DNA of 64,000 nt from Antedon mediterranea (Eukaryota > Echinodermata > Crinoidea > Comatulida > Antedonidae). Of this stretch, positions 2,149 through 43,352 are shown piece after piece. The notes under the pieces were generated by a model. It saw only the letters and a program-made list of their open reading frames with translations, was not told the origin of the DNA and did not search any database. Each line of letters opens with the position of its first letter. Position 1 is the stretch's first letter. The position numbers and the translations under genes are program-made. Location of the stretch: NCBI RefSeq assembly GCF_964355755.1, contig NC_092674.1, positions 28,570,001-28,634,000 on the forward strand, read 5' to 3'.

Positions 2149-2155
2149 TTTGTCA

Positions 2156-3675: not shown

Positions 3676-3687
3676 TCTTTTTCTTAA

Positions 3688-5212
3688 TCTTCTTTCTTTC
3701 TGTATGATTTTTGTGTAACGCTTTTCTCTAAAACTTGCAACTATAACATTTTGTTAACTATGTTAACATTTTGACATTTATGTAACGTCGTCAAGCGAAG
3801 CTTTTCATGATGTTTACAATCGCGCAACGTGACGTACGCGCGATTTAACGATTTTCTCGTATTTAACATATGTCGAAAACCAAATAACATTTTAAAGTGA
3901 AACTTTGCAAAAGTTTAATTTATATCATGCGCTAACCTTCTGTTGAAAAAAAATTGCGTGTTTTACACAAAGTTACGCGCGCACGCGCATTTAAAATTTC
4001 AAAATGCGCAAAATTAATTTCTAATCAACTTTCTACGCGTTTCATGTCGGTTTAAGCATGTCAAAAATTCCCACGCATGCGCACATTTTTACGTGTGCGG
4101 AGCGCACGTAGCATTGAAAACGTATTTTTTTCGCGTGATTTATGTTTTTCCAGCCTTTTCTAGTAATTTTACCAAATTTTAAACAATTTTGACTTAAAGA
4201 TACGTCATACGAGCACGTCGAATTGGACAATTTGCGCGCGTTTTTTATGAAAACGTTAAAAAATTCGTTTAAAATATGCCTTTTTTAAAACAGTCGTAAT
4301 TTCTAAACTAAACGGTCAACTTTTTGTGGATGGCATTTTCTGGAAGTAGATGAGTTGTAGATATTGGATCAGGTATTAATATGGCTAACCGGACATTGTG
4401 ATGTCATCGTATGGCCACGCAAATATAAAATTTAGGATTTTGTATCTTTCGTCATAGCTCATCACATTGAATAGAGCGCATCTCCACTTATCCGTTTTCC
4501 ATTTTCACCCCGATTTTGATATTGTCTAGGTCAATCAACTATCTTTCGCATGAGTTAAAAATATTTTAATTTTTTTTACGTCATCGTGCTTAAAAATTTA
4601 AATCACGTGTGGCATTAATTTCATCTTTACAGTAAATTTTAATCTGTTATAGCTCGTAAGAATAAAATGTGATAATCACGATTAAAACTTTTTCTGGAAG
4701 CTATTGGACTGTAGATACGAAATTATGTAAAAATGTTGCCAATCGGATGTTGTGACGTCATCATATGGCCAGTTAAATAAAAAAGGTCGTATTTTCATCT
4801 TTTGCGTCATAATTCATTACATTTAAACGAGCGCGCATCAATATTTCACGTATTCAAATTTCTTCTACATGCTAATACGTTGTTGCTGAGATAATTTCCT
4901 TTCGGAATTGCTACCTTCGCGTTTCATTTTAAAACCGTCAACATGTTAAAAATTGCAATAAATAGCGGGTCCCGTAATTTCACCTATTCTACACTGTATG
5001 TGATATGGATACAGATTATACTGTGTATACTACAGTATATATGAATTTAAACAATAAATTTCAGCAATAACAACATATCATATTCTTCAGTTCAGGTCAT
5101 AATGCCAACGTGAACACTTCCTTTTGTCCTCAACCTATCCCCTTAATGTTAATGTTGCACCACTTGCGCGGCGGATAACCAAACTCGTCAAAGTGACGAG
5201 TTACATGTCTAG
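3688..5212 (+). mobile_element. Helitron-like non-autonomous element, tandem copy 4 (last)
   Basis: 1525-bp unit with the same start, preceded by A after a 12-base filler (3676-3687). It has the same hairpin (5182-5202) and ends in CTAG at 5209-5212, followed by T. Similarity to the array stops here, which fixes the 3' boundary of the family independently of the hairpin. Short frames within the units are not conserved between copies and are not taken as genes. Confidence 0.7.
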
Positions 5213-6563
5213 TCTTTATTTTTCTGTCCATGATAAAGTTTTATATACTTTTGATTTGTAGATTTCTTTGTACTATTTTTACTGTTTCAAATAAATATGA
5301 ATATAAAATATCTACCATTCCTATATAACTTTTTCTTTAGCATCTTTCTACCTCTGCATACATTTTTAAAATGCATCAATTAAAAATTAAAAAAAATAAA
5401 AAAATCATGCAAAATTTAAAATTAAAAAATCATTTGTTGGAAGAGGTAAAAAACCAAATAAATAGGTATATATAATTTTTTTAAATATGTTTTCTTGGAA
5501 TGGTCTATAATTACAAAGATCTGTTTATACCACTTTTTTTGACAAAATGAGCTAATCATAAAACCCTTCAACAAAATCTATATTATAAAGTCATTGTACT
5601 TTAAACAATCCATTACAATACATCATTGTCAGATCAAATCCTGCTCCTCCTTCCTATCAAATTAATTCCAAATAGAGTCTGATTGATAAAATAGAATCTA
5701 TCTAATCTACTGAATTTAACCATTTTTTTCAATATCAGAATTTATACGAGAATTTACAAGCATGGATTCCATGCGGATTGGTGGTGAAAATCATGTCAAA
5801 CTTATTCTACTGCAGTTACTGCAGTAAAAAAAACTACATTTTGTATGTACCTTTAAACCTTGTTTTTTGCCATTTGCCATACAGTACCATACAAGGTTTT
5901 TTTCTACAGTACTGTATTTAACCATTTTTTCAATATCAGAATTTATAGGAGAATTTACAAGAATGGATTCCTGGGGGAAATAGTGAGAATCATGTAAAAA
6001 TTATTTTACTGCAGTTACTGCAGTAAAAAAAACATTTTTCTTTAACCTTGTTTCCATACCAAGTTTTTTTTGTACTGTTATTGCAGTAGTGCCTGATAAA
6101 CTTTAATAAATCATACGTTATTATATAGTTGTAAAAAAAGTTTTTACTGCAGTAACTGCAGTAGAATAATTTTTACCCTATAGTACACTTAAAAGCAGAA
6201 AAATGGAAAATAACAAATATTTCTATAGAGATATCATGTCAAAATTATTCATTTTTGCTTCTTTTATTTTATGGTATAAAGTACTGTACGTTATATAGTT
6301 TTAAATAAGTTTTTACTGCAGTTACTGCAGTAGAATAGTTTTTACCCTTACCCTACCCTTAAAAGTAGAAAAGAGAAAAAAGCAAAAATAACAAACAAGT
6401 ATAGAAAGATGACATGATCAGATTCCGCATGTAATGTATAGCTGTAAAGGTCATCGACTATTAAAGTAATCAAAATGCACTGTACATACAGCCTTACAGG
6501 CATGGCCAACTTGAAGCAAAACAATAGTTTGGGCCAAAATGACAACGATTTGTTAAAACTCAC
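5213..6563. repeat. AT-rich spacer or intron with duplicated TACTGCAG MITE motifs
   Basis: No gene is seen. About 200 bp starting near 5708 are repeated imperfectly from about 5918, and about 110 bp near 6085-6200 recur at 6270-6375. Each carries a near-palindrome TACTGCAGTTACTGCAGTA at its centre (near 5808, 6009, 6146, 6313). The copies at 6009 and 6146 face each other like the termini of a MITE of about 180 bp (5999-6176). The stretch probably lies within the intron downstream of the DH-domain exon. Confidence 0.4.
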
Positions 6564-6641
6564 CTTAACAAGAGTTTCAAGACTCTGTACATAGGATTGT
6601 TCAGTGTGAAGCATACTATTAGCAACCTGCAGTCGTATATC
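6564..6641 (-). CDS. Rho guanine-nucleotide exchange factor, exon with start of the DH domain
   Basis: A 78-bp exon on the minus strand, preceded by a good acceptor (tttccatag) and followed by the donor AAG|GTGAG. It is in phase 0 at both ends. It encodes 26 residues including MLHTEQSYVQSLETLVK. That is the signature of the first helix of a Dbl-homology domain, where E, S/T-YV and L-x-x-L positions are conserved. DH domains catalyse GDP release from Rho GTPases. The rest of the domain must lie to the left of the window or in exons I cannot see; 1-5212 is transposon. The phase matches the 883-codon exon upstream, so the two probably belong to one gene, but the 8.4-kb gap could hide further exons. 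Confidence 0.65.
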
Positions 6642-9441
6642 CTATGGAAACAAAAAAAAAGGCATTACTTTACTTGTATAAAATTTTTCAAAAAAATGCT
6701 GGTTTTAATACTTTGAGGTGGTCATAAGAGCATGAAAATTCTAAGCATAGTTTATGCATAATTCCATGGTAAAATATAAAACAAAAATTATTAGTATTTT
6801 CTATACTATAGTGTAGTAGACACATACTTCTATTTGCATTGTGTTATTGCATGGAGTAATTATTATTACTCCATGATTATTGTAGCAAAATAAACAATGT
6901 TTTTTTAGCATTTTGGATATCAAGTTTGTTACAAGCTGTACTGAACTCTTTTTTAACATCCCTTCATTTTTGTTTTTACGTAAATATCTTATTTATATGA
7001 TGAATGAATAAAGTAGGAATTGAATTAATTTGTTAATTCTCTACCTGACACTTGGGTTCAAATCAAGACTAGGTTTATTATAATGACAACACATACTCCA
7101 TTATAAACATTAATTGTTCATTTCATGAATATAACATCTTAAACATGTAACTTGATTAAATCATATTTGTATCTCTGGTGGTACTGTTATTGTTGTACCC
7201 ATCCTTGAAAAACAAAAGGTGACTGTCTAAGCACAGGTCGAAAAATGGTATTGATAAACACCCTCCTCTCCCTTTCTCACTTGCGATGTCACCTAAAACA
7301 TCCCTACCCCTCCACCAACCATACCCTCCCGCAACAACCACCCAGCCGATCAGATGATATTTGACACAATATGCAAATCTTTCATCAAACACAATAAATC
7401 ATGTTTTTTATCAGCATGTTTGTAGTTGTTATGATTCATGTACTACTATTAATTTATTTAATTGTTTTGGCATTTTGTTATGTGGATAATGTTTTAGGAA
7501 TGCTGAGAGGTTCATTGTAACAGGTGTTCGGCTGTTATTATAATAATTTAAGAATGGTATGTTCTCAATTATTCCCAAAGTACTTGCCTAAGTATGGTTC
7601 AACAATTGTCTTTTATGATGGGAGGTTGTAGTTGGTCTTTTTTAGGGAGCTTTAAATTTGTGAACTAGTTATGTGTGTTAATTCATTGTGCATATGAAGG
7701 GCCATTTGGAACATACTTTCTTGCTCGACTCAAAACTAGTTTTGGTGGATTCTAGTTGCCATGAGATATGCTCAACGAACAAACGACACACTATATATGC
7801 ATAGGTCATAGAAAAACAATTATGCTCATTGGCGAATCCAGGAATGTGAAATTTAGGAGGTGCCCGGGCCGAGTGGGCCCCCTTTAATCTGCCCCTGATG
7901 CTCAATAATTGTCAAATGAAAAGCACACCAGTCAACATATCAGGTGCTTTTGAAAGCGAAAGAGATAAAGTTCATATTATGAAATTATCGAGAAAAAAAA
8001 GCATAGAAAACATAGATCTACTGTAGAATTTTACTTTCAGAATCATTCAAGCGTGAATTCAGAATCACTCAAGCATGCGATTCAGAACAACTCATGCATG
8101 CAATTAACCTTAATATTTTCCTTCTTACAAAACAGTTTCAGCGATGACGGTGATTTAAGTAATCGGAAGGAAAATTCTATTCATAATTTATTGATATAAG
8201 ATTACAATATTAGATATTAAATGTCATTGAATATTTTAGATAATAAACAATATAGACAATTAAATAAAATATTTATCAATTAAATTAATTCGCTTGTATT
8301 CAAAATAAATCATTCTATCTTGACAACAGTTTGTAATATGAAATTCCTATCTACATTGTCAGACATGTCACATAGTTAAACTCATATTTCTAAAAAAGTC
8401 AGTTGAGCAATTTATACATTTTTTCTTGGTATCAAAAGCATTTTGATTTTTTACTTATTCAAATTTCTGACTAATGTTGTACAAAACAGATATACAAGAC
8501 ATTGAAAGAAAAAAAAAGGGTATTTATGTGTTTATAACAGACAAAGAAATAAATCAAATCAATAAAAACACAACTCCAATAACATATGTCGTTATTGCAG
8601 TTTTAAAGAAGTAGTTACTGCAGTAACTGCAGTAGAATTATTTTGACATGATTACTTGAATCAAGAGGACGTGCAATTTATCCTAATGACAAACTTTGGA
8701 TTGATTTGATTTTAATTTATTAGAAAAATCACTATAAAAAAAAACATACAAAGTGATAACATAAATTTCTAACTGGCTCACACAACATAAAGATAATTTA
8801 TTAAATTGTCATTAAAATCTGTTGACAATCTTCCAGGAAATTGGTGTATATAAATTTATTTTCTTTTAAACAACAAGTAATTCTTGTCATTTTTATGTAA
8901 CAGATCATAAAACCTCAATCAATTGGCTCACACAACATAAGATAATTTATTAAATTGTCATTAAAATCTGGTGACAATCTTCCAGGAAATTGGTCATAGA
9001 TAAATTTATTTTCTTTATACAACTAGTAAATTCTTATCATTCTAATGTAACAGATCTTATATACTATTGGTCAATTCCAAAAAAGTATAAAATTGTTTTC
9101 ACAAATCTGATATATAGCAGTTAGCAAACATTCTTGGAATTCCTGATGGCTAACTTTGACATTCTTGGACATAAATGAATTAAATTTTGTTTAAAAAAAT
9201 GTATAATTCATTTTTTATAGGTTTGCTTGGTGAATGTACTATACAAATTGAACGAAAAATTTCAAAATGTTTAGGATGTATGGGCAGTGTCACCCACATG
9301 ATGTTGATGCTCATATGGGTGAGCTGCTTTGAAGGGGTTTTTGTTTTGAGTTACAATTACTCCTCTGGGAGGATAAAGGCCTATTGTAAGTTTATCCAGG
9401 TAAAAGTATGACATAAAATGAAAAAAAATCCTTCAGTCATA
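6642..9441. other. Probable intron of the Rho GEF gene; no exon recognised
   Basis: No coding exon could be supported. Contents: a fragment near 7831-7905 with a transposon-like tip (CATTGGCGAATCCAGG); a short-period direct repeat with AGAATCA and CAAGC at 8034-8105; a lone TACTGCAGTAACTGCAGTA motif at 8615-8633; and a tandem duplication of about 150 bp (about 8770-8920 and 8921-9060), each copy starting with GGCTCACACAACATAA and ending with GTAACAGATC. Confidence 0.4.
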
Positions 9442-10259
9442 GGGCCTGTTTCTGCTGCAACTGCTCAAAATACTGTATAAAATACGGTATTTTTTATACC
9501 GTATTTTTTAGTACCCCGTTTCTGCTAACAATACTTCTTGGGTGGTCGTGTTAAATTTCATCTTTTTTACCCAAATTGCCATTCATTTATTTGATCGATA
9601 ATTAAAAGTCGCAATAAAGGAAGTTTTAAGTCTCACTTTCAACAGCCTAGCCCTAGTGATTGAGATATTGTGAGAGCACAGAAAACATCGTAATGGGGAC
9701 AATTAATTTGTTCCTTCCCCGGCCCCGAGTTATTGTATTTTGCAATGTTGTACTGCTTTCGCAGGCTCTTCAGCTTTGAGTTTACTTGCTTTGGAGACAA
9801 GTCTATTCCATACTCCTGCTTCATTTTTTTTTAGAAATGTCTTTATAAATGTGGTTGTCCCTTTTATTACCTTTTAGTTGGCCAGACATTTTAGCTTCCC
9901 CACACACATTTATTTAGTAAAACTGTGACGTCTTCGTTCCACATTTTCGCCGAATATATCTATACACGGTGTGTAAAGCAGCTGACAGCGACAGAAAATA
10001 AAAACACGAATGTTGACCTTTTGTCATGTAAAAAAAAATACGGTATTTTTTATTGGCAGCAGAAACGGGTACAAAAAATACGGTATAAATTTGTAAATAC
10101 CGTATTTTATCCACAAATTTTGTGGGGAAAATACGGTATACAAAATACAGTATATTTTTTATGAGCGCAGTTTCTGCTGCCAAAAATATACCGTATATAT
10201 ACGGTATTCAAAAAATACCGTATAATATACGGTATTTAGTTGGCAGCAGAAACAGGGCC
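9442..10259. mobile_element. PIF/Harbinger-like element with 3-bp target duplication
   Basis: Terminal inverted repeats start GGGCCTGTTTCTGCTGC on the left and, on the other strand, GGCCCTGTTTCTGCTGCC on the right. The direct repeat ATA flanks both ends (9439-9441 and 10260-10262), as expected for a superfamily that makes 3-bp duplications. The interior is full of the small palindrome AAATACGGTATTT. On the minus strand, 9639-9824 encodes a 61-residue fragment (NSKLKSLRKQYNIAK, NCPHYDVF) that resembles a Myb/SANT-like protein of Harbinger elements. No transposase remains, so the copy is non-autonomous. Confidence 0.6.
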
Positions 10260-11556
10260 ATACATGCGATAACACAATATAAAAATAGTGGAAAAACTTG
10301 TTTATTATTGAATAATTTAAAACAAAATATTTTATTCATCTTTTCATTTTAGGTTTGTGCAAATTCAATTAATAATTAATAATTTAAGTCAACGCTATTT
10401 TATTTTTTTTTACATTTTATAAATGTCAAAGTGTTAATTTGTGAATAATTAAAAGCAGAAATATATTTTTTATTAACGTATTTTATTCAGCAATTTTTAG
10501 GCTTATTAATCGCAATTTGTCTGCAACTATTAAATATACACGTGCTATTTATATTTTTTTTTTTATTTGGTTTAAATTATTATGTTTAATACATTTTATT
10601 TTACTAATTTGCAACAGTTTTATTAAACTCGTTCCTATTAAAATAATATTCCAGCTATATTTTATATTATGCTGTGAAACTTTAAGTTTACATAAACTTC
10701 AGGAATTTCCAAATTCCTCATTTCATGTCATTTGAAAATGTAAGGAATTTTAAATATCTACTTCAACAATTCTTTTATCAGTGTTTGTATTTTGCTAAAA
10801 TTAATATACCTCCTAATTATAGATATTTTGATCTATATTTAGCAAGTTTGTAACCAGATCTTCAAGAAGTAGTTTAACCTTAGGCCGCAATACCATATTT
10901 GTCATTATGTTGGACTCATTTTTTAACCACCTGTTATGGTACACTGCTGGAACCATCTCACAGCCTTCACTAAGTGCAGCATCTCCTGCAGGGCTAACTT
11001 TCCTCTAGGCCTGCAATGTTATACAACACCGCCATGATTTTACAATGGAGAATTTGAAAAGAAACCAAACTTTGGTGCAATATCTTTATGGAATGTTTGG
11101 CATTGCAAAATGGTAGCATGCCATGCTTCACTGGCACGCTATTGAGATCTGGGGAAGATACTGATATTTTAGATCCATTAAAGTTCAATAGCATTTAATA
11201 TCAATAACATTAAAATCTAATAAAAAAAAAAAAACATGTTATTTAATTATTGTGGGGAAACATATACAGTACTTCATTCATGTGGTCATTTTATCTCATT
11301 ATCAGCCCCTATGATTTTAGTAGTACTGTACACCCAAGATGGCCATTTGGGATTGAACTACATGTTTCCTATCTCTTTAATTTCTCATAACAGCATACAT
11401 GACATAACATCAACATTTTTGGCACACATATAACTGCGCTTGTTGCTGTCGCGACAACTTGAAATGAATGAAATGTTAGGATTTTAATTAGTAGATTGAG
11501 CACTTAAACTTCACTCTATAAAGAGTAAAACTTCAGAAATAGACCCCCTATTAAAG
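10260..11556. other. AT-rich intron or spacer, nothing recognised
   Basis: No exon, RNA gene or repeat boundary could be supported here. Short frames on both strands show no conserved motif and no splice-site support. Confidence 0.3.
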
Positions 11557-11623
11557 CTTGGTTCCCACTTTGATACAACAAAGTACTGTAGGTGCAACTC
11601 AAGTGAGTTGGCCAATCACAAGA
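11557..11623. mobile_element. Half of a palindromic MITE (tip AAGCTTGGTTCCCAC)
   Basis: Begins AAGCTTGGTTCCCACTTTGA and ends at GGCCAATCACAAG, where the tail of the neighbouring SINE starts. It matches the left half of the complete element at 19751-19939, so it appears to have been cut by the SINE insertion. Confidence 0.45.
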
Positions 11624-11928
11624 ATAATAATAATAATAATAATAATAGTTCATTCTTACAGTATATAGCGCTCTACAAGCAAGCTTCTCTAAGCGAGAAC
11701 ATTATTACCGCAGTCATTTTTTGGATCAAACACGTATAGAAACTTCTATAATGCAGCTAGTAATCAGCGCAAAGTTGTGTCTTGATCTACCCATTTATAC
11801 ACCTGGGTGGAGAGAGGCAAACGTAAGTAAAGTATCTTGCCTTAGGATACAAGCAATGCGGCAAGAGTTGGATTCGAACCTCGGTCTCACGATCAGTAGT
11901 CCAACACCCTGCGCCACACGCCCTCACT
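11624..11928 (-). mobile_element. tRNA-derived SINE
   Basis: Read on the minus strand it begins GGGCGTGTGGCGCAGGGTG and has a tRNA-like head: TGGCGCAGGGTG fits an A box and GGTTCGAATCC at about 11870-11880 is a perfect B box. A body follows with CTCTCTCCACCCAGGTGTA, and it ends in an (ATT)n simple-repeat tail at 11624-11649. Head, body and short simple tail are the standard SINE layout, transcribed by RNA polymerase III. The body wording resembles SINE bodies of marine invertebrates, but I cannot name the family. Confidence 0.7.
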
Positions 11929-11937
11929 AGAGACAGT

Positions 11938-12040
11938 ACAGTTGACCTTCTCATTTACGTACCCCTTGGTCTGAGTGAGAGGTTTTTGTAAATGAAAAGT
12001 AAATGAGAATATTCGGGAAAAAAAGGCCCCTCTATAAAAA
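11938..12040. mobile_element. Pogo/Tigger-like MITE fragment
   Basis: Starts TACAGTTGACCTTCTCATTTACG, close to the CAGTTGACC tip typical of pogo-type elements. A partly complementary stretch (AAATGAAAAGTAAATGAGAA) lies 50 bases further on. The right boundary is not clear. Confidence 0.35.
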
Positions 12041-12500
12041 TCTTTGGTCACCGTAAAAACATGCCCAAACTACAAAGGCCCTATGATGATCAAATTGATC
12101 AATGGTCATATAAATTTGAATTTTAATAGTTTTAGTCTATTCACTATTACCCACGTAAATAAACCTGAACCATAAAATATTAATTACTACACTACTCTTG
12201 TAAGTACAGTAAATATTTGATGAGCAAGAGTGCCAAGACTTAAGTGATGATAGTAGAAAATATAAGCTTTCTCCGGGGATCCGACCTAATACTGCTGCTT
12301 TATGGCACTGTGTATAAAGTTAAAGAATTTAAAGTTATATAGATGTGTGATATAAGAAAATAAACAAGGTTTTAAGCCTATATAATGAGGATACTGTATC
12401 TTCCATTCCTGACTTTAGAAAACTAGATAGAAATGGTGTACTGTAGTAATATTATTGTAATATTCAATATTGTACAGTATATTAGGGTTGGATCATTTCA

Positions 12501-12603
12501 AAATTATTCTATCACAGTTTACTGTAGTAAAACTACATTTGTTTACTTTATTTAAAGAGTAAACAGAATGTATTTACTGCAGTAAACTGCAATAGAATAA
12601 TTT
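12501..12603. mobile_element. 103-bp MITE with 31-bp terminal inverted repeats
   Basis: Left end 12501-12531 (AAATTATTCTATCACAGTTT and on) and right end 12573-12603 are reverse complements over 31 bases with only three differences. The tip sequence ATTATTCTAYYRCAGT is shared with the TACTGCAG repeats at 5800-6340 and 8615 and with a half copy near 13565, so these form one family. Confidence 0.55.
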
Positions 12604-15039
12604 GGACATGGTCCCTTACAGGTATTACTGCCTATAAACCTGTATATAAATTAGCCTGAATCTATCTGGTAGCTAATTTTTAACTAGGCAACTTTTTATA
12701 CAAAGCTAAATCATTTTTTATTTTTATTTTTAACATCAAAGGGTACAGTATACATTTAACAAGCCAACATACTGTACACAACATTGGTATTTGGGACTCG
12801 AGCAGTAATATACAGTAGTATATCTATCTAGTATTTATTAAAAGAGGTTGAAAACTCAACAAGGATTTATTCTTATGTCTACTGTATCTCTACTAGATTT
12901 AGCTCAGTGAGGCACCGTTTTTCTCGAAAAATAAATTTGTTTTTAGCACATAGTAAAACAACCTACAATATATCTTTAATTATTTATAATTCTACGAGAC
13001 AAACATGTAGTTCGCATAAACATACACACATTACTCTCCTCAAGAAGACTAAATCTATCAACTAAACGTGATAATTCATACAGCTTTGAATTCCTTGATG
13101 ACCTTAAAAAGAATTTGTTAATAAAAATAAAGTCAAATATTTTTAGTAACACTGTCAATGTACAGTAGGCTACTGTATTTAAGTATAAAATGAATTATTT
13201 ATCATTTAAATATTTACTTCTAAATCATGTCAAAATGAATTAAATGCAAATTCTTTTAGAATAGAAATTTCAATGCAATATTCAATGACACAGTTTTCGT
13301 CTTATGTTTTACAATGACATGAGATGGTATCAGAGATAACAGTAATTACAGAATATACAGTACATGTATGTTGAGAAGTATGAAAATAATTTTCAGTGGC
13401 AATAACACCTGAGATTGAGAAGCAATAGTTTCAGTAATACATGAGATTTTTTTTCAAGAGAGGTGGGAAGAGGGATATAAGTGATGTACTGAAGATTCAA
13501 GAACATTTTATTTGATATAAAACAAAATAAACATTTTATCATTACTTATTAAGATCCTGTCCAAATTATTCTCTTGCAGTTTGTACAGTTTGTTACTCTA
13601 AAACTATGCAAAAGCATAGAATAGCAAGTCTTTTTGTCTTAGGTCAGACAATGGGGTTTTGGTTAATTTTTAACTTCTTTAATTTTGTCTTTTTATAGTA
13701 AGTGAAATCATCATTTTTGTTCATTTATTTTTCTACTAATAATATTGCTATAAAATACTTTATTGAAAGTAAAATTTGATTTGATTTTATTCAGGTTTCA
13801 ACATAAAATTACAAGACAAAGATAAAAAATACAAATAGAAACATGCAAAGTATTGCCCAGTGTACACAAGAAATCTAGGATAGCCCATAAAGTCGAAAAA
13901 AAAGTTATTTGCAATGGGGTCCTAACTAAAAAATATGGCCTAATTAGAAGTTTGATTTTATTCCTCTTTATTTTTTGGGGAACAACACATCTTTAAAAGA
14001 GCATACCGGTACCTGTATTTACATTCACATCCAATTCTCACTATACACAGACATTGAATGAATGAATATTCATTTGGACTCAATGCATATAATGAGCACA
14101 GTGAAATCATTAACCTATTAAAAGTAAACCGGCTAGCTACTGTATCCATTTTTGTTTATCATGTGTCACGCATCACCGCATCGGTAATAAGTAATTCCAT
14201 CATTCTAGTTAGAAGCGGCACCTGCAGATTCATGGATGATGCTTAAAAACAAGATTCAATTTGTTCAGGATTTGAAAGATCGATCGTGATGTTTCAGAAC
14301 TGAACTATGCATCTATTCTTTTGTTGATTGGAATTGAATGAAGATTGAAAAGGTCACAAGGATATGAACTGAATATTTATACACAAAGGAGAAGTGTTTA
14401 TAAAAATCATCTTTGATCAGATAATTAAATATAATAATATTCTATACAGTAATCCTTACTACAGTATAGAGTAAGTATTATATACTACTGTGTACAGTAG
14501 AGAGTAGGTATTGTACTTGTACTACTGTAAAGTATAACTGTGTTAAATAAAACACAGTAGGTTTCCAATTGTTCGCTTCGCAAGAAAGTGTCACCTTTTA
14601 GGCCTCTATATTCAGGGGACACTCATATTTAGGAGGAACTTTGTTGGGTCCCAAGGTCCCCACAAAAATGGATACTGTAACTAATTACAACTTTTAGCAG
14701 GATCCCAATGGAAATAAAGCTAATAAGCTTTTTTTGGTTATTCTGGAAAATCTTTTATATTAATGTCCGTAATTTATGTTATCACTTTGTATGTATTTTT
14801 TATGATGATTTTCCTAATAAATTCAAATCAAATCATACAGTAGCACATAATACTAATAATACAATGCTATCACAACGATTAGTTTTATACCTGAGAAAGT
14901 TAAATAATGTTCTTTGTTGAAAACCAAATACTATAAGTATAAATAAATAAATAAAAAAAGACAAAATGTCATCTACTTGCTCAACCAACAATTATAAAAA
15001 TATTAAAGTCCAAAATTAAAATAATCAAATTGATCTTAC
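12604..15039. other. Probable first intron of the Rho GEF gene; no exon recognised
   Basis: AT-rich sequence with no supported exon. A half copy of the 103-bp MITE tip lies near 13565. A stretch near 13775-13890 (TTTGATTTGATTTTATTCAG) looks like the tail of an old retroelement. The remainder shows nothing I can name. Confidence 0.3.
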
Positions 15040-17688
15040 CTGTTGTTTCTTCCGTCGTGTTGGCGAGATATCTCTCTGTTTACTTGTCCGAGGTAATGTA
15101 GACGATTGCGAAGTGGAAACTGTAGATATGGCTGTCTTAATACCCGATATATCTTTAAGTCTTAGATTAACATTTTTTGAAAGATTCGGCGTTGACTCCG
15201 ATAGTGATAAACCTTGCGTAGGTCCTAGCGTCGGAGTCTGTGTATTGCGAGTTGGCGATAAAGTATATTTTCCAGAATTTTCTCGTTCACTTAAACTTAT
15301 CGATCTTAAAATTGTATCAACTTTGGTAACATCTGCCGAGTCTAAAGATCCTGATTTTACAGTAAAACGGTCGTGATCGCTAACTGCTCTCTGATGGATG
15401 ATTCTAATAAGAGGTGGTTTATCATGCACAATATTAAGATTTTGTTTTATTGCTTCTTGGCTTTCAGTCGATTCTACGGTGTTCGCTCCTCGGTTTCTCT
15501 TTTGAGATTTTCGTCTTTGAAGTTGAGGAGTCAATACTGGTTGGATGGGTTCTTCATCAATATGCAAAATTGGCTCAATATCTCCTGAGTTATTCAAACT
15601 TGTTTTCGAGTCCAGTGTAGAGTTCAAATCTTCTACCGATGTTTGAATTTTATCTCCATAAATCGGAGTCTGACCGGACATCATAGGATTGCTGGTGGAC
15701 GATTGTATGTTTGGCGTGTAGTGTTCGGTTACAATGCCAGAATTTCCATTTGGCCAAGTTAAAGATTTTTTTTTCAAGGATTTTCCATTCTTTTCATTTG
15801 AATCAATGTTTGAGTTGATAACGCCACCAGGTTGGTAAGAGACTTCCTCCATGGCATGCAGGAATCCTTGATCAGCAACAGTTTCACTGATCGAGGTTGC
15901 AAGACTTGAATTAGAAAGACTACTTTCAGTACTGACTATGCTTCCTGCATAACCTGTTGATGGCGTCTCAACGCTTTCTTTACTCACTGTACCACGTAAA
16001 AGAGGACTAACCAAATTATTTTGTGGATATCGCTCTGGCGTGGGATCGCTTTTCCAACGATCGGTATCTCCATTCGACGAATAATTATCCAAAGTTGGTA
16101 TTTCTCCGATGGCTAATTTTCTTCTTCGTCGCGTACTAGGCGTGGACGGATCTTCTGAAATTTTTGTGCCGTCAGATTTTCTGCCATTATCATGAATGTC
16201 AGTTTTGGGTTTTAGTGGTTTTAATGCTGCGTTTAACTGTTGAAATTGGTTAGGTGGTGTTGTGTGCTCCAATTTCTGTAAAATTTGTGGCAGTTCCGGT
16301 ATTCTTAGACTCGTTTTTTTAACGTTCCTCTGTGGTGAAATTTGAGGAGATTCCTGACAGTCGGACAAAACGCATCCTTCATCAGAAAGATTTGTGTCAT
16401 AGGAAGTGACACTGGGTGGTTCTGAAACTGGTGATATTGGACGAGATAAATTGTAAGGTGTGCTGTCCGCTGAGGGCGATACCGACCAAGAAGAAATTAA
16501 CTGATTGCGTAACTTATTAGTAATATAATGTAAAGATCTTGGAGTTGGAAGGCTGTTTGTTGAATTATCATCACTGCTTTCAACATCTTTATTTGATGAT
16601 TTTCTTAAAGACCATTTCAAATTACTATAATCAGTTCTTAAAGTTATCTCTGGACTAACTTGTGGGTGAGAATTTCCTTTACGCCAACCAAATGGTTGGG
16701 AAGCACTGTGCCTCATGTTTGTATTGCATCGATCTGAATACAATCCGCATTCGATATGAGCACCAGTGTCCGACATTGTTCTATGTAGCTTTGGGTTTAC
16801 TCCGGATCTAGGATGACGATTCAAGGATGAATTCTGAATTGGTTTGTGCTCAAGTTGGTAGCCAGCTTCCATCTCGCACTCCAGATGTCTATGTTCTTGC
16901 GGACTCGTCTCTATATCCTTCACAGTATCAACGCTAGAAATGCTGGATCTCCGACTCGTTGATCTAGAGCTTATGGGGCTGAGCTCTTCAAACGACTGCA
17001 ATGTCTTTTTCGTGACAGTAGCTAACCTAGTCAAGGCCAGAGGCTTGACTGGTTTAGCCAATGCTTTTCGGTTCAGTTGTTTAAAATCTGCTTTAACGTG
17101 ATAGTTAAGGCAAGACCCTTCATATTCATCCATAGGTTCAAATCTATTGAAAACATAATCATCCTGTGAGGCCTGTTCGCTTGACGCTGTAGGCCTATAT
17201 CTTTTCCGATGTTTACCACCGTTTGAAGAATATACTTGTCGACTATCTTGCTGATAAATATCAAATGGATTTGCACCTTCTCCTAATTTTAAGTGCCTAG
17301 GTAAAGTTGTGGATTTGCGTTTCATTGGCGTGACATCACCACCACCATATGCCATCCATCCACGTTGTTGAACTGGAGACACAAAATAAGAATCTTGTTG
17401 ACCAGTAGGCCTAGAAGTAGTATCGTCTTTCCGAGAATGGAATTTAGAAGCACCGTTGTTATCATTTACTTTAGCCATATTCATTGCTAATGTACCTTGT
17501 TGGTCTGATACAAGCGGGGTATCATTTTGCTGTTGGTAGTACTCGATATGGCTACCATTAGATAATGTTAATAACTCCTCCCCATTAGGCGTTTCATTAC
17601 CATCTTTATCCTCATTACACATCCACTCTAATCCAAATTCGCGGGTGAGGTAGCTGTTTCGACCCCTGCTAGGTGTCTGCTGAGACAT
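15040..17688 (-). CDS. Rho GEF (ARHGEF17-like), giant Ser/Thr-rich first coding exon
   Basis: Open for 883 codons from the ATG at 17686-17688 to a strong donor, CAG|GTAAGA, at 15040/15039. The open frame runs four codons past the donor, but the splice site is the likely end. The encoded region has no globular domain I recognise. It is rich in Ser, Thr, Pro and Asn, with many SP/TP sites and basic patches (RRRRKL near the middle, SPTRRKKQQ at the end), as expected for a disordered regulatory N-terminus. A long N-terminal exon of this kind followed by a DH domain is the layout of ARHGEF17/TEM4, a RhoA exchange factor at actin junctions. The link to the DH exon at 6564-6641 rests on same strand, matching phase 0 and order, so the name is an inference. 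Confidence 0.7.
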
Positions 17689-30101: not shown

Positions 30102-31351
30102 AGCTGCACCTGAAAGAAAAATTATTACAAAAATATATTATTACACAATTACTAAAATTATACTGTACTTCATATTATTGGCATAAGCCTATTTTCTCAT
30201 TGGTAAGATTTGTTTAACCCTTTTCTTACATTTCTGGGTGCAAAAACATATGTGGTCACTTCGTCCCAAACCTGGCCTTCTAATCTAAGCATGGGCCTAA
30301 CGCTAGGCCCTATCTATCTCTAGTTAGTACAGCAGTAATAAAACAGTACACTTCACATATAGGCCTAGGAGGCTAGGGCCGGCCTACATACAGCACAGTT
30401 CAGTACACATTCGTTCGTATCGCCTATTATTAGTAATTACTACTAGGTCATGGCGAGATATTCAGTAGATCAGTAATAAACTATTGAATGTTTCATTTCA
30501 TGCTCTAATAATAATCTATCCTGGGCCGGGTGTTTTTTTTTTTTTTGGTAATTCTGTAGTATACATCTCCTTTTTGACGTAGGCCTACATATTGGTTTTC
30601 TATGTACAGTACATGTAACCATTTAAATCAAGCATTTCATTCATACTATTATCAACTATCACAAACTAATAGCACACAGACTTTATATTATGTTTTATAC
30701 ATTTAATAAGGCAGTTTATAAAGAAGGATGATCAATATATAACTGAGAAATTTATAGATTTTAATAACTATTTTTCATAACTCACGAACCTCTGCTATCG
30801 CACAGACCGAAAAGGTCGATCGGTAGTCTCGGAGAGGTCAAATAAATGTAGTCCAACTTAAGCTATTAAAATTAACTTAGTTTAAGTTTAATTATGTTTG
30901 ATAAGGTTTACACTAGAAACATGATTGAAACTACAATTTTGGATATTTTAATATTATTTACAGCTAACAACATTAGTAATTTTATTACCTATTTATATTT
31001 GATAATAATAATAATTTCAGAATAATATTTTTGAGTAGGCTAGGTACTCGACCCACGTACACAAACTTTTTCCGAAGGACAAAAATATCGTGAGTACCAC
31101 TGTTAAAATTGTATTTATTAATCCTAGCCCTACTAATATATGTACCAAATAACGCTGTTCGCTTTTATTGTGTATAATAGTGTAGACTTCTGTTCAGGTG
31201 GTTTTTATGATACTGTTCTTTAATTTGATTAAAATCACCAGAAAAGTTAGGCCATTCTCATCGCCCACCACCAACCAGTTCAAAGTCGGACACCGCACAC
31301 AGACAGCAGTACCCACCCCCGTGCTGAAGGAAGGCAGGTATATAAACTATA
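30102..31351. other. RPL9 upstream region (5' UTR exon and promoter expected)
   Basis: The non-coding first exon and promoter of RPL9 should be here. TAGGCCTA-type words cluster at 30355-30390 (AGGCCTAGGAGGCTAGGGCC). A T-run at 30532-30546 and an AT-rich stretch follow. I could not fix a transcription start. Confidence 0.3.
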
Positions 31352-31382
31352 CCAAACTGGCGAGTAAATCATGTTTTACTTT
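31352..31382 (+). repeat. Left terminal inverted repeat of the foldback block
   Basis: CCAAACTGGCGAGTAAATCA and 11 further bases, preceded by TA at 31350-31351. It matches the complement of 39746-39776 except at position 6. Confidence 0.65.
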
Positions 31383-31559
31383 TTAAACCTCGCAACGTCT
31401 GGTTGAAAAGGCTACTCGGACCAATAATTGCTATTAGCCTAGGGGTTATTGCGATTTGGACGTTTCTGATTGGCTGTAGCCATGGACTATATTGATTAAC
31501 ACTGTTCTGATTGGTTGTAGCTTTGAATACATCTTCTCGGAACTCGTCCTTAATACAAT

Positions 31560-33050
31560 AGCAATTTAGCACAGTGTTTTACTATAATTAAATAGCAATT
31601 TAGGTAAATGTCTTTTGAAATGAAATTAAATAAATTATAACCAATTTGGTTAGAGTAAAACACAATGATAAAGAATAGGAAACATTTAATAATATGATAA
31701 ATTACATTTACATAGCAATTTAGCACTGTGTTTTACTATAACCAATTTGGTTAGAGTAAAACACAATGATAAAGAATAAGAAACATTTAATAACATGATA
31801 AATGACATTTAGCAATTTAGCACTGTGTTTTACTATAACCAATTTGGTTAGAGTAAAGCACAATGATAAAGAATAGGAAACATTTAATAACATGATAAAT
31901 GACATTCACATAGCAATTTAGCACTGTGTTTTACTATAACCAATCAGATTAGAGTAAAACACAATGATAAAGAATAGGAAACATTTAATAATATGATATA
32001 TAACATTTACATAGCAATTTAGCACTGTGTTTTACTATAACCAATTTGATTAGAGTAAAACACAACGATAAAGAATAGGAAACATTTAATAACATGATAA
32101 ATTACATTTACATAGCAATTTATCACTGTGTTTTACTATAACCAATTTGGTTAGAGTAAAACACAATGATAAAGAATAGGAAACATTTAATAATATGATA
32201 AATTACATTTACATAGCAATTTATCACTGTGTTTTACTATAACCAATTTGGTTAGAGTAAAACACAATGATAAAGAATAAGAAACATTTAATAACATGAT
32301 AAATGACATTTACATAGCAATTTAGCACTGTGTTTTACTATAACCAATTTGGTTAGAGTAAAGCACAATGATAAAGAATAGGAAACATTTAATAACATGA
32401 TAAATGACATTCACATAGCAATTTAGCACTGTGTTTTACTATAACCAATCAGATTAGAGTAAAACACAATGATAAAGAATAGGAAACATTTAATAATATG
32501 ATATATAACATTTACATAGCAATTTAGCACTGTGTTTTACTATAACCAATTTGATTAGAGTAAAACTCAACGATAAAGAATAGGAAACATTTAATAACAT
32601 GATAAATTACATTTACATAGCAATTTATCACTGTGTTTTACTATAACCAATTTGGTTAGAGTAAAACACAATGATAAAGAATAGGAAACATTTAATAATA
32701 TGATAAATTACATTTACATAGCAATTTATCACTGTGTTTTACTATAACCAATTTGGTTAGAGTAAAACACAATGATAAAGAATAGGAATTTAATAATATG
32801 ATATATAACATTTACATAGCAATTTAGCACTGTGTTTTACTATAACCAATTTGGTTATGGTAAAGCACAATGATAAAGAATAGGAAACATTTAAAAATAT
32901 GATAAATGACATTCACATAGCAATTTAGCACTGTGTTTTACTATACCAATTTGATTAGAGTAAAACACAATGATAAAGAATATGAAACATTTAATAATAT
33001 GATAAATTGATAGCACTGTGTTTTACTATACCAATTTAGTTTTGGATAAA
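31560..33050 (+). repeat. Left arm: about 14 tandem 101-bp monomers
   Basis: Successive GTGTTTTAC landmarks lie at 31729, 31825, 31926, 32027, 32128 and 32229, a period of 101 bp. Each monomer contains a palindrome centred on AACCAATTTGGTT with flanking arms TTTTACTATA and TATAGTAAAA or TAGAGTAAAA. There is a higher-order period of about five monomers: distinctive variants such as CCAATCAGATTAGAG near 31940 recur about 507 bp later, with the surrounding block almost unchanged. The last copies (after 32790) are shorter and more diverged. Confidence 0.9.
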
Positions 33051-33433
33051 GAATATGAATTTAAAGAATGGATATAATATGATATGATACAATATGATTT
33101 TCTCCAAATTAGTAAGACATTTTGGAATACTGCGTGCGTAGTGCACCTAACAAGATCATGTTCGCTATTTAAAACTCACATTTTAAAACCGTAAACGCAT
33201 AAATTTGCGGACAAACTCGTAAAACACACTTCCAGAGATTTAATAATTTTAACAGTACTACAAAATCCATAATATAAAGTAGTATAGATTTGTACAAAAA
33301 GAGCAGAACAATTAAATTAACTGTCATTACATCTACTGAACTGTCTCATTACATCTACTGAAAAATTCATCGCGATGAATTTATTTATAATACACCAATC
33401 AGATCACACGCAATTAGTATGGATGCCAGTTTA

Positions 33434-33625
33434 GGCGATGATAAAATCGCGTCGATGATGCAATGAAAATTGCGTCGATGTGATGAAAATTGCGTCGATG
33501 AATATAGTATTGATGTAATGATGTGATGAACATTGCGTCGATGAAAATTGCGTCGATGTAATGAAAATTGCGTTAATGTGATGAAAATTGCGTCGATGAA
33601 AATTGCGTCGATGAAAACTGCGATC
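33434..33625 (+). repeat. 15-bp tandem repeat, left arm of the inner foldback
   Basis: Repeats of GATGAAAATTGCGTC, some with a TGT or TAT spacer, introduced by GGCGATGATAAAATCGCGTC. The inverted partner is at 34045-34250. Confidence 0.75.
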
Positions 33626-34044
33626 TCCCTGCCGGTATGATTTGAATATGATGTCATGGATGCTGGACATCTGGATTTTATGTACTGAACTGGTGGATTA
33701 ACGGAAGCAATTAGCTAGAAGATATAATGTGTCCGAAAGGACAATAATGGATCCATTGCTAAAATGTGTTGACAATAAATCACTAAAATGTTAATCAGTG
33801 CATATATTTCAACATTGTTTTAGTGCGCGATCACTGTGCGCTTGTCTATAACGCGCGCTAGCGCAAGCGGTAAACATGTTTATCATATCAAAATATTCAG
33901 AAACCGTCAATTTTTAGCAACATGATAACATTATTAACATCATTATTAACATCAGCATTTACTTTACTAGTAGTCATTTTCATCATTGATTGAATTAAAA
34001 CCATTTGGAATTTTCATAATCAATTAAATTCATCACATCAATTT

Positions 34045-34250
34045 TCATCGATGCAGTTTTCATCGACGCAATTTTCATCGATGCAGTTTTCATCGACGCA
34101 ATTTTCATCGACGCAATTTTCATCGATGCAATTTTCATCGACGCAATGTAAATTGCGTCGACGCAATCTACATTGCATCGAAGCAATCTACATTGCGTCG
34201 ATGCAATTTTCATCGACGCAATTTCATCATCGACGCAATTTTTATCATCG
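34045..34250 (-). repeat. 15-bp tandem repeat, right arm of the inner foldback
   Basis: Reverse-complement version (GACGCAATTTTCATC)n ending with ATTTTTATCATCGCC, which mirrors the start of the left arm. The 420 bp between the arms is unique sequence. A minus-strand frame through this array (33995-34531) encodes an IASMK repeat and is judged to be a by-product of the repeat. Confidence 0.75.
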
Positions 34251-34914
34251 CCAAAAACTTGTGTAAAACGGCGTTCCATAAGTGACGAATCGCATATTCG
34301 CCGTTTATTGTTGAGGCGCGTAAACAGTGTGCGCAATGCACGTTTTCTTCCCATGACGAGACGAATCGATATTCGACTCTTCTTGTGACGAATAATCGCC
34401 AAATTATAATTAATATAATTAATTAATGAAATAAGATACGCAGTTGATGTTTGCATCAATTGTTCTTTAGAATAAATACTTTCGAAATACAAAACAAAAA
34501 ATGTGTGGTGAGTGACGATATGTTCAATCATGGACCTATAAATTACTAATTTATAGGTCCATGATTCAATATCTGTAGCTTCAATTCAAACATAATGTAA
34601 CAGAAAATTCGAAGCGTAAAAAACGTTCGTTTACACAACACTTTTTTTTATACTTTATTATTGATTATTATATTATACAGGAATACTATTTATTTCCTCA
34701 TTTCTACCCAAGAATAAACAATTTTTGGATACAAAACTTTATGTGAATTACATTACCAAAATATTAAAATGAGGATAAAAAAACATCGCGTAAAATACTC
34801 GTACTCAAAAGCTTCTGAAATTTGTAGATATATGTCATGAAAAAGAAATTTGACATTCCCAATAATTTTTTTTGGCAAAAATGTAATATATGAAACATAC
34901 AATTTACATAGTTT

Positions 34915-36690
34915 ATCATTGTTTTTTATTAGAACCAATATGGTTACACAGTTAAACATAGTGATAAAGAATAGATACTTGTTAGGTTACTACCCTACCC
35001 TCTAGTTTGAAGCGACATTATAAATTCATCGAGAAAAAAAAACGTATCGTATTCAGAAACGTTTGACATTTTGTATAGATATGTTCAATAAGACAAAACA
35101 AATTATAAATTTCAAGACAAATCGATGATTTCCATTATTTGCATTTCAAAAAATTCACACTTATGAAAGACCATACATTTTCAACATTTCCTTTTTTCTG
35201 TGTACCGAGTTTAGAAACTTTTTGAATACCAGACGTATTTTTTTGTGATGCTTTTTCATTTGAATTGTAGTATAAAATGTCATTGAAACGAGATAAAAAT
35301 CATACAAGACATGTTATAATAGGTTGCTCTATATACATAACAAAATTAGTTCTTTTTTTTGGTAAGAATCGCCAATGAAGTAGAAAGTTATTTCAGATGT
35401 AGTGTGCATTTATACGTCATTAATAGTAGGCCTAAAATATAATATTAAATATTATAAAGAATATCAAACATTTTATGTTATGAAAAATAAAATTGACATA
35501 TAAGTTTATCATTGTGTTTTACTATAACCATTTTGGTTAAAAGTTAAACACAGTGAGTGATAAAGAATAGAACTGTTTTAGTTTATTTAACCCTAACCCT
35601 AGTTTGAAGCGATCACATATTTAATATTCATCGCTAAAAATACGTATCGTCTTGAAAAACGTTTGATATTTGGTAGATATGTTCAATATAGGTTCTTACA
35701 TCTATAATGCAAAAGAAATATCCTAATAGTTTTATTTTGATTTCTGAGAATCATCAATGAAGTAAAAATGTGTTGGAAATGTATTGTCTTTCATAAGTGT
35801 AAATGTTTAGAAATGCAAATTATTAAAATCACGAATTTGTCTTGAAACTTTTATTTTTTGTTTGTTTTATAGACGTAAGAACCTATTGAACATATTTACC
35901 AAATTTCAAATGTTTCTGAATACGATACGTATTTTTTCGCGATGAAAAGTATGTGATCGCTTCAAACTAGGGTTAGAGTTATATAACCTAAAACAGTGTC
36001 TATTCTTTATCATTGTGTTTAACTGTGTAACCAAATTGGTTCTGTAAAACAAGATGATAAACTATGTAACTTGTATTTATTATTATTACATTATATGTAT
36101 CCTATAATGTAATATGAAAAATAAAATGTACATAGTTTATCATTGTGTTGTACTAAAACCAATTTGGTTAAAAGTTAAACACAGTGTTAAAGAATGAACT
36201 GTTAGGTTATTTAACCCTAACCCTAGTTTGAAGCGATCACATACTTAATTCATCGATAAAAATACGTATCGTCTCAAAAAACGTTTGAAATTTGGTACAT
36301 GTTCAATATAGGTTCTTACATCTATAATGTAAAAGAAATATCATAATTTGTTTTATTTTGATTTCTGGGAATCATCAATGAAGTAAAAATGTGTTGGAAA
36401 ATGTATGGTATTTCATAAGTGTACATTTTTAGAAATGCAAATTATTAAAATCACGAATTTTTTGTGAAATTTATATTTTTTGTTTGTTTTATAGACGTAA
36501 GAACCTATTAAACATATCTAACAAATTTCAAAAGTTTCTAAATACGATACGTACTTTTTCGCGATGAATTGATTATGTCGCTTCAAACTAGGGTTAGGGT
36601 TATATAACCTAAAACAGTATCTATTCTTTATCACTGTGTTTAACTGTGTCACCAAATTGGTTCTGTAAAACAAGATGATAAACTATGTAA
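34915..36690. repeat. Three tandem units of about 600 bp, each partly palindromic
   Basis: Units near 34915-35480, 35490-36070 and 36110-36690. Each starts with TTTATCATTGTG and GGTTAMA, then has CCTAGTTTGAAGCGA, ATACGTATCGT and ATGTTCAATA. The latter two units then show these landmarks again in reverse (AACCTATTGAACAT, GATACGTA, TCGCTTCAAACTAGGG). The edges carry half of the palindrome found in the 101-bp monomers, which ties these units to the arms. Confidence 0.65.
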
Positions 36691-36779
36691 CTTGTATTTA
36701 TTATATTATTACATTATATGTATCCTATTCTTTTCATAACGTTTAGATAATAAGATATGTTTAATATAATATTTTGCTA

Positions 36780-39395
36780 TGTAAATAATATCATATAATA
36801 AATGTTTCATTATCATTGTGTTTTACTGTAACCAAATTGGCTATAGTAAAACACAATACTAAATTTGTATGTAAATGTATCATATTATTATATGTTTCCT
36901 ATTCTTAATTTGTGTTTTACTGTATCCAGCACAGTGCTAAATATCATTTATCATAGTTAAAATGTTTTACTCTAACCAAATTGGTTATAGTAAAACACAG
37001 TGATAAATTACTATGTAAATGTCATTTATCATATTATTAAATGTTTCATATTCTTTATCATTGTGCTTTACTCTAATCAAATTGGTTATAGTAAAACACA
37101 GTGCTAAATTTCTATGTGAATGTCATTTATCATGTTATTAAATGTTTCCTATTCTTTATCATTGTGTTTTACTCTAACCAAATTGGTTATAGTAAAACAC
37201 AGTGCTAAATTGCTATGTAATGACATTTATCATATTATTAAATGTTTCCTATTCTATATCATTGTGCTTTACCATAATCAAATTGGTTATAGTAAAACAT
37301 TGTGCTAAATTGCTAGCTATGTATGTAAATAATCATTATTATTAAATGTTTCCTATTCTTTGTCATTGTGTTTTACTCTAACCAAATTGGTTATAGTAAA
37401 ACACAGTGCTAAATTGCTATGTAATGACATTTATCATATTATTAAATGTTTCCTATTCTATATCATTGTGCTTTACCATAACCAAATTGGTTATAGTAAA
37501 ACATGGTGCTAAATTGCTATGTAAATAATCATTATTATTAAATGTTTCCTATTCTATATCATTGTGCTTTACCATAACCAAATTGGTTATAGTAAAACAC
37601 AGTGATAAATTGCTATGTAAATGTCATTTATCATATTATTAAATGTTTCCTATTCTTTATCATTATGTTTTACTTTAACCAAATTGGTTATAGTAAAACA
37701 CAGTGCTAAATTGCTATGTAAATGTCATTTATCATATTATTAAATGTTTCCTATTCTATATCATTGTGCTTTACCATAACCAAATTGGTTATAGTAAAAC
37801 ACAGTGATAAATTGCTATGTAAATGTCATTTATCATATTATTAAATGTTTCCTATTCTATATCATTGTGTTTTACTATAACCAAATTGGTTATAGTAAAA
37901 CACAGTGCTAAATTGCTATGTAAATAATCATTATTATTAAATATTTCCTATTCTTTATCATTGTGTTTTACTCTAACCAAATTGGTTATAGTAAAACACA
38001 GTGCTAAATTGCTATGTAAATGTCATATATCATATTATTAAATTCCTATTCTTTATCATTCTGCTTTACTTTAACCAAATTGGTTATAGTAAAACACAGT
38101 GCTAAATTGCTATGTAAATGTCATTTATCATATTATTAAGTGTTTCCTATTCTTTATCATTGTGTTTTACTTTAACCAAATTGGTTATAGTAAAACACAG
38201 TGCTAAATTGCTATGTAAATGTCATTTATCAAATTATTAAATGTTTCCTATTCTATATCATTGTGTTTTACTCTAACCAAATTGGTTATAGTAAAACACA
38301 GTGCTAAATTGCTATGTGAATGTCATATATCATATTATTAAATGTTTCCTATTCTTTATCATTGTGTTTTACTATAACCAAATTGGTTATAGTAAAACAC
38401 AGTGCTAAATTGCTATGTAAATAATCATTATTATTAAATGTTTCCTATTCTTTATCATTGTGTTTTACTCTAACCAAATTGGTTATAGTAAAACACAGTG
38501 ATAAATTGCTATGTAAATGTCATTTATCATATTATTAAATGTTTCCTATTCTATATCATTGTGTTTTACTATAACCAAATTGGTTATAGTAAAACACAGT
38601 GCTAAATTGCTATGTAAATAATCATTATTATTAAATATTTCCTATTCTTTATCATTGTGTTTTACTCTAACCAAATTGGTTATAGTAAAACACAGTGCTA
38701 AATTGCTATGTAAATGTCATATATCATATTATTAAATTCCTATTCTTTATCATTCTGCTTTACTTTAACCAAATTGGTTATAGTAAAACACAGTGCTAAA
38801 TTGATATGTAAATGTCATTTATCATATTATTAAGTGTTTCCTATTCTTTATCATTGTGTTTTACTTTAACCAAATTGGTTATAGTAAAACACAGTGCTAA
38901 ATTGCTATGTAAATGTCATTTATCAAATTATTAAATGTTTCCTATTCTATATCATTGTGTTTTATTCTAACCAAATTGGTTATAGTAAAACACAGTGCTA
39001 AATTGCTATGTGAATGTCATATATCATATTATTAAATGTTTCCTATTCTTTATCATTGTGTTTTACTCTAACCAAATTGGTTATAGTAAAACACAGTGCT
39101 AAATTGCTATGTAAATGTCATATATCATATTATTAAATTCCTATTCTTTATCATTCTGCTTTACTTTAACCAAATTGTTTATAGTAAAACACAGTGCTAA
39201 ATTGCTATGTAAATGTCATTTATCATATTATTAAATGTTGCCTATTCTATATCATTGTGTTTTACTCTAACCAAATTGGTTATAGTAAAACACAGTGATA
39301 AATTGCTATGTAATGACATTTATCATATTATTAAATGTTTCCTATTCTTTATCATTGTGTTTTACTCTAACCAAATTGGTTATTGTAAAACACAG
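36780..39395 (-). repeat. Right arm: about 26 tandem 101-bp monomers
   Basis: Same monomer as the left arm but inverted: TTTCCTATTCTTTATCATTG, then the palindrome, then CACAGTGCTAAATTGCTATG. In the best copies the palindrome is 37 bases long, with 18-bp perfect stems around one central base (for example around 37870-37906). Variants mark higher-order repeats: ATTCCTATTCTTTATCATTC near 38041 recurs near 38736 and 39137. TAATCATTATTATTAAAT spacers recur in several copies. Confidence 0.9.
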
Positions 39396-39745
39396 TATAT
39401 TTTACCTCAACAACATCGCCGCAAAATTGTTTATACGTTTATTTTGATTGGCTAACTAAAGTACGGTCTAATGAATATTGATATCAGAAGATTCCCTAGC
39501 TTAGTGAAAAAGTTTTATTACCAAAAATATGCTGATTACGTCACTACCGGAAGTTGTAGTCTAGCATGATGCAGACGCAATTGATTATGTACGTTTGTTA
39601 AACATATAAAAAGCTGTAAATTACCACAAAACGACAATAGGAAAGAATTCAAAGAAATGCCCTACGTGTTCAAAATCATTGTTTTAATATAGTCTGTATG
39701 TATAACTAACAATTGACCTTGTGGAAGAGCGTATAAATTTAATTT
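39396..39745. other. Unique sequence between right arm and terminal repeat
   Basis: 350 bp without counterpart on the left side. It must include or adjoin the YIPF5 promoter. TACGTCACTACCGGAAGT at 39537-39554 combines a CRE-like TACGTCA and an ETS-type CCGGAAGT, a pairing typical of housekeeping promoters. Confidence 0.45.
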
Positions 39746-39776
39746 AAAGTAAAACATGATTTACTCGCCAATTTGG
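39746..39776 (-). repeat. Right terminal inverted repeat, 36 bp before the YIPF5 ATG
   Basis: Reads AAAGTAAAACATGATTTACT then CGCCAATTTGG, followed by TA at 39777-39778. Mirrors 31352-31382. Confidence 0.65.
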
Positions 39777-39812
39777 TATTGGATATATAGCTCAGGAAGG
39801 CCGACAAACAAC

Positions 39813-43352
<3,540 letters not shown>

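Follow-up and report, generated by a model that had tools for sequence, protein, structure and literature searches.

F1, the family represented by one copy in the 64-kb stretch of DNA analyzed here (the window), is a foldback transposon, apparently non-autonomous, whose arms are most likely multiplied subterminal transposase-binding sites, a reading to which we assign a probability of about 0.68. Specifically, a transposase made elsewhere would recognize the tip together with an inner motif and cut at the CAGG and GAGC tips, and insertion would follow a staggered cut of 7 bp in a target weakly palindromic over 19 bp. The arms would supply dozens of further motif copies and thereby a larger share of a limiting transposase. 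The reason for repeat-filled foldback arms is an old question, and F1 and its sister family b, with dozens of copies each, offer a natural comparative test of terminal repeat and arm motif changing together.

Boundaries and organization of the window copy

An alignment of all copies placed the window copy at 31335–39793 (CAGGTATAT...ATATAGCTC; all coordinates without a contig name are positions in the window), with the target-site duplication AGGAAGG at either side (31328–31334 and 39794–39800). The two tips of F1 differ, reading CAGGTATAT at the left end (CAGG) and GAGCTATAT at the right end (GAGC). The left terminal inverted repeat (CAGGTATATAAACTATACCAAACTGGCGAGTAAATCATGTTTTACTTT; 31335–31382, forward strand) is composed of an imperfect outer 14 bp and an inner 34 bp (31349–31382) that differs at one position from the right end, where the corresponding repeat (tip GAGCTATATATCCAATACCAAATTGGCGAGTAAATCATGTTTTACTTT, read inward) occupies 39746–39793 on the reverse strand, including an inner part at 39746–39779. 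The initial annotation had described a 31-bp enclosing inverted repeat with one mismatch: the inverted repeat is real, but the longest end-to-end inverted stretch with ≤1 mismatch is 34 bp, i.e., these two inner parts. That annotation had also ended the element at 31352 and 39776, between TA flanks, which has to be revised: the TA is internal, 15 bp more are conserved beyond it in nearly all copies before similarity breaks off (left, CAGGTATATAAACTA; right, GAGCTATATATCCAA), and the ends lie correspondingly 15 bp farther out. Since most copies have a TA adjoining the near-perfect 34-bp repeat, a Tc1/mariner-type or other TA-target element might be considered; however, the conserved 15 bp outside the TA, the copy-specific 7-bp duplications that form the true flanks, and the empty sites (see below), which retain one copy of the 7 bp, leave this reading with a negligible probability. 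Tc1/mariner was rejected as a candidate, as the TA is not the duplication, the true one being 7 bp.

Inward of the left terminal repeat lies a subterminal part outside the arrays that holds degenerate pieces of the monomer (31383–31635, forward strand); a 149-bp stretch starting at 31352 has matches in 40 scored copies, at 99–100% among the matches listed. The two opposite arrays of a single 101-bp monomer that had been noticed at the outset were recovered by TRF, as a left arm of 13.7 copies (31636–33007, reverse strand, 93% matches) running in the reverse of the right-arm sense, and a right arm of 24.4 copies (36963–39396, forward strand, 90% matches). Two minisatellite-like blocks of opposite sense (TGATGAAAATTGCGTCGATG and CAATTTTCATCGACG) occupy 33439–34246, and the central region spans 34240–36700 (forward strand). 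The right half of this region is an imperfect palindrome with degenerate monomers (74% self-inverted, 35446–36745). Open reading frames of the F1 center are low-complexity, and the longest had no Pfam match. A right subterminal non-array part (39397–39745, forward strand) separates the right arm from its terminal repeat.

On the outer side, the ATG of a predicted reading frame starts 12 bp past the right duplication (39801–39815). By eye, its beginning resembles that of a YIPF5-type gene, and the F1 insertion may therefore sit in the 5′ leader of that putative gene.

Genome-wide copies, target sites, and mobility

Searches covered an assembly of 354 Mb in 18 contigs, with all listed matches on the 11 large contigs (C1–C11). 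At ≤3 mismatches, a 30-bp terminal repeat had 60 matches on each strand (60 + 60), and a reversed control of it had 0 matches in the genome. Inward-facing pairs accounted for 112 of the 117 listed matches, i.e., F1 comprises at least 56 two-ended copies, spanning 0.5–23 kb (mostly 7–11 kb). The summed length is ~0.52 Mb for F1 pairs and 0.31 Mb for b pairs. Exact 7-bp target duplications, with a sequence private to each copy, were found in 51 of the 56 copies, and 8-bp duplications in none. The target preference is symmetric about the duplication, with a pyrimidine 6 bp before and a purine 6 bp after it (Y at −6 and R at +12, each seen in 46 of 51 sites and each with p ~ 1e-9), and the target is weakly palindromic over 19 bp. 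Paralogous contiguous empty sites with a single copy of the duplication were identified for four F1 copies (C5:29599703, C8:17104887, C11:16928078, and C10:7470342), the first of which has its empty-site paralogue in the window itself (40312–40442, 98.5% over 131 bp).

The genome search for paired ends and empty sites that the initial annotation had suggested thus yielded both, and its foldback-type mobile element is borne out by the 56 paired copies, their target duplications, and the four paralogous empty sites. We consider it nearly certain that F1 is a mobile foldback family. Same-unit arrays that face each other in a long inverted repeat can also result from local inversion, and the structure in the window might then be two satellite arrays in chance opposite orientation, or the product of segmental duplication, without any mobility. 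That 56 pairs are dispersed over unrelated places, that their 7-bp duplications differ from copy to copy, and that paralogous empty sites exist makes such an origin extremely improbable. Structurally, F1 is filed as a foldback element, having long inverted tandem-repeat arms around a different center and dispersed copies with target-site duplications.

Inheritance of arms and structural variants

F1 is a young, recently active DNA transposon family: the central 2.46 kb is found full-length in 24 loci at 97–100% identity. Seven copies, including that in the window, were read full-length. Monomers that occupy equivalent places in different copies were more alike than monomers of one arm (96.6% vs 94.7% identity), indicating that each arm was carried along when its element was copied, without homogenization since then. 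The initial annotation had named two outcomes contrary to its reading, a terminal repeat found nowhere else and arms made separately; instead, the pairs are dispersed and each element brought its arms with it. Sizes also recur among F1 copies (8098 bp twice, 9036 bp twice, and 10813/10814/10842 bp), as expected if variant copies transpose.

Arm-less, inverted-center, and chimeric copies provide material on what transposition needs. The center is inverted in one 10.8-kb F1 copy, and a 0.5-kb copy (523 bp, C10:7470342) consists of two right ends without monomers, flanked by a perfect 7-bp duplication. Transposition may thus not depend on arms, unless this copy lost its own once it had inserted. 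A chimera (L121, C1:58080–59500) joins the right end of family b and a single b monomer to F1-type subterminal sequence and, after it, F1 monomers.

A second foldback was encountered inside F1. Two nested 7.2-kb inserts, each a giant inverted repeat, are carried by a 22.8-kb F1 copy, and the same insert is carried by a 16.4-kb copy. This ~7.2-kb insert is a different giant foldback, with 3.5-kb arms that are 96% alike, tips reading TATGGCAAGCCTCAGCTG, and 6-bp duplications (CAATTT and CTGTGT). It sits twice in the left arm of the F1 copy at C4:31170900–31190899 (L069-L070; positions 1195–8409 and 8633–15923 of the joined copy), and was also seen at L126.

The monomer palindrome and its match to the terminal repeat

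Within the 101-bp unit, a palindrome of ~52 bp has 23 of its 26 pairs complementary, and the DNA fold of the monomer reaches z = −6.8 vs shuffles, with 0 of 200 shuffles as good, in agreement with the earlier observation that the monomer is itself a palindrome. Monomer cores number 2270 genome-wide at ≤2 mismatches, and the arrays, in the part listed, are almost all within mobile elements, which points to a satellite-like repeat spreading by transposition. The further proposal that a 9-base tip, CCAAATTGG, forms the center of every monomer was too broad: the left tip is CCAAACTGG, and CCAAATTGG is present in 427 of 571 full monomers. Taken alone, the 9-base match between tip and monomer does not clearly exceed what chance would give in DNA this rich in AT (p 0.06–0.11 from shuffles), and it is only through the comparison with family b that a tip–monomer match becomes significant.

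Family b includes 42 pairs with the same kind of left/right asymmetry as F1 (CAGGTATATAAAATATACC / GAGCTATATTTCCTATACC). Its arms are built from a ~106-bp unit that is homologous to the F1 monomer but diverged, with a palindrome weaker than that of F1 (fold z −0.5). Repbase places elements in the same superfamily when duplication length is equal and terminal positions 1–11 are alike with ≤1 mismatch; F1 and b agree in both respects (CAGGTATATAAACT / CAGGTATATAAAAT), with the 7-bp b duplication (CAATCGA) taken from one b site.

Other ends in F1-flanking DNA follow the pattern [CG]AG[CG]TATAT-N5-ATACCA. Among these, the copies read of tip families a and c proved short or old and held no arrays. 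The family a tip (GAGCTATATTATCTATACCATTCCGGTAGGTTGAG; L119, L123) belongs to a ~0.6-kb repeat, with many solo copies, which make up over half of the 100 matches listed of 130; an opposite end that would pair with this tip type is absent from the matches listed. Family c tips (L131, L132, C10) are rare and near genes, and a reading frame in L131 matches PF04073, an aminoacyl-tRNA editing domain (E 4e-20).

Between F1 and b, the block inside the tip differs (GAGTAAATCATGTTTTACT vs TAGTTGAGAATTCTCAACT), and so do the flanks of the monomer palindrome (GTTTTACT..AGTAAAAC vs TTCTCAACT..CTTGAGCAC). In each family, the inverted-pair motif of the inner terminal repeat recurs at both sides of the monomer palindrome (AGTAAA..TTTACT in F1, AGTTGAGA..TCTCAACT in b). 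Evaluated against shuffled monomers, the inner terminal block resembled the monomer of its own family and not that of the other (own-minus-cross p = 0.0004), in a comparison of two families only, with tip families a and c left out, blocks chosen after the sequences had been seen, and shuffles that ignore shared ancestry. Within families, block and monomer matched in b (p = 0.0004) and matched weakly, short of significance, in F1 (p = 0.07); the cross-family comparisons of block and monomer gave no match (p 0.86 and 1.0).

The presence of a terminal-repeat motif at both sides of the monomer palindrome suggests that the arms are probably multiplied transposase-binding sites of subterminal type. 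This had been the initial proposal, to which the correlated divergence of terminal repeat and monomer between F1 and b now lends partial, sequence-based support, and for which the F1 comparison alone is non-significant. Conversely, the arms may be passive, i.e., tandem repeats that expand within the long inverted repeats of a foldback, through slippage, unequal exchange, or failed gap repair, and have no function, with the shared motif merely recording the origin of the monomer by duplication of terminal sequence. Structural variants are indeed common (inverted center, array length differences, the L121 chimera, and an arm-less copy with an intact duplication), and no clear compensatory changes in the palindrome were seen among the 571 F1 monomers, both of which would fit passive arms. 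The weaker palindrome of b also counts against the binding-site reading. Yet the terminal-repeat motif and its counterparts on both monomer flanks changed in step between F1 and b, beyond what descent from a shared monomer alone would give, and we regard passive arms as rather unlikely. A more specific form of the binding-site reading is put forward as a tentative idea: in the two coexisting families, terminal repeat and arm dyad motif would have changed in step because one transposase per family reads both, and the arms would be long arrays of dimeric docking sites that compete for transposase and may also steer new insertions, given the five double insertions described below.

Double insertions, transposase search, and superfamily

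F1 and b elements were found side by side far more often than expected by chance. For three F1 copies, the distance to a b element is 17, 21, and 80 bp, vs ~0.006 such cases expected, and two b–b pairs are 7 and 11 bp apart, vs 0.003 expected. All five double insertions are oriented right end to right end (C2:14556331/14556349, C5:29599607/29599688, C7:26553429/26553451, C1:15791976/15791984, and C7:4710397/4710409), and in the b–b pair 7 bp apart, CAATCGA, the duplication of b, makes up the whole gap. Double insertions of this kind are also made by P elements, and the cases seen here serve as a lead.

Profile searches of the genome returned 35 matches to PF21787 and 12 to PF21788 (both P-type). 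In these non-exhaustive searches, none of the P-type (PF21787, PF21788) or hAT (PF05699, all but some of the weakest) matches checked was inside any F1 or b pair. Likewise, no transposase was detected within the large F1 copies sampled, those of 14.8, 15.1, and 19.5 kb being array, family center, or unrelated DNA at the places sampled. Given that the pairs tested were without transposase, F1 elements look non-autonomous, and we infer that they would be mobilized in trans, by a transposase binding the shared motif. A P-like frame of 794 aa occurs at three sites (C1, C3, and C8) with equal score. At one of these (L118, C1:2821000–2826800), the single P-like locus read, a second frame of 337 aa runs antisense over the start of the first, inverted repeats lie on both sides, and the locus looks recently mobile; none of the F1 tip motifs was found there.

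Two further superfamilies were tried and rejected. For hAT, the F1 duplication is 7 bp and never 8, and the PF05699 matches checked lie outside all pairs. Dada elements target small RNA genes, have no terminal inverted repeats, and make 6–7-bp duplications, whereas F1 has terminal inverted repeats and diverse targets. With P elements of the Galileo type, F1 shares a 7-bp duplication and a palindromic target motif extending beyond it. An origin of F1 in the P superfamily is a possibility, at slightly less than even odds.

Comparison with known systems

By description, FB of Drosophila and TU of sea urchins share with F1 long inverted, repeat-built arms around a variable center. Their duplication lengths, 9 bp for FB and 8 bp for TU, differ from that of F1. 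Helentrons, which are part of the Helitron group, are not known to have target duplications or paired terminal inverted repeats, unlike F1. The satellite-like arrays of oyster Helentrons are similar to F1 in that a mobile element of a marine animal disperses tandem repeats (PMC7492417). Tetris / DAIBAM of Drosophila virilis is likewise a non-autonomous foldback with tandem repeats in its arms, modular variants, and a short tip-sharing relative, but it has 8–10-bp duplications, 220-bp repeats, and only three structurally complete copies reported; in addition, satellite expansion outside the element was shown for Tetris / DAIBAM and is barely seen in F1 (PMC4079207).

The closest known system is Galileo, of the P superfamily. 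In Drosophila, its target duplication is 7 bp, rarely 8 (PMC4168063, PMC3573991, PMC3688188), its arm repeats hold multiple THAP-domain sites shown experimentally, and its arms were proposed from binding assays to be multiplied transposase sites (PMC3688188). Further likenesses are a palindromic target motif that reaches past the duplication, tandem repeats inside long arms, the lack of transposase in recent copies, and chimeric copies that mix subfamilies. In contrast, the Galileo target consensus, GTATTAC, does not emerge from the 51 F1 sites, and its repeats are ~140–210 bp and few per arm, where F1 has 14–24 or more palindromic 101-bp units per arm and left (CAGG) and right (GAGC) tips that differ. 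Overall, Galileo-like foldbacks already show this architecture and duplication length, as well as chimeras and arms that vary, while the long palindromic arrays, a sister family with a covarying motif, and the right-to-right double insertions are new here.
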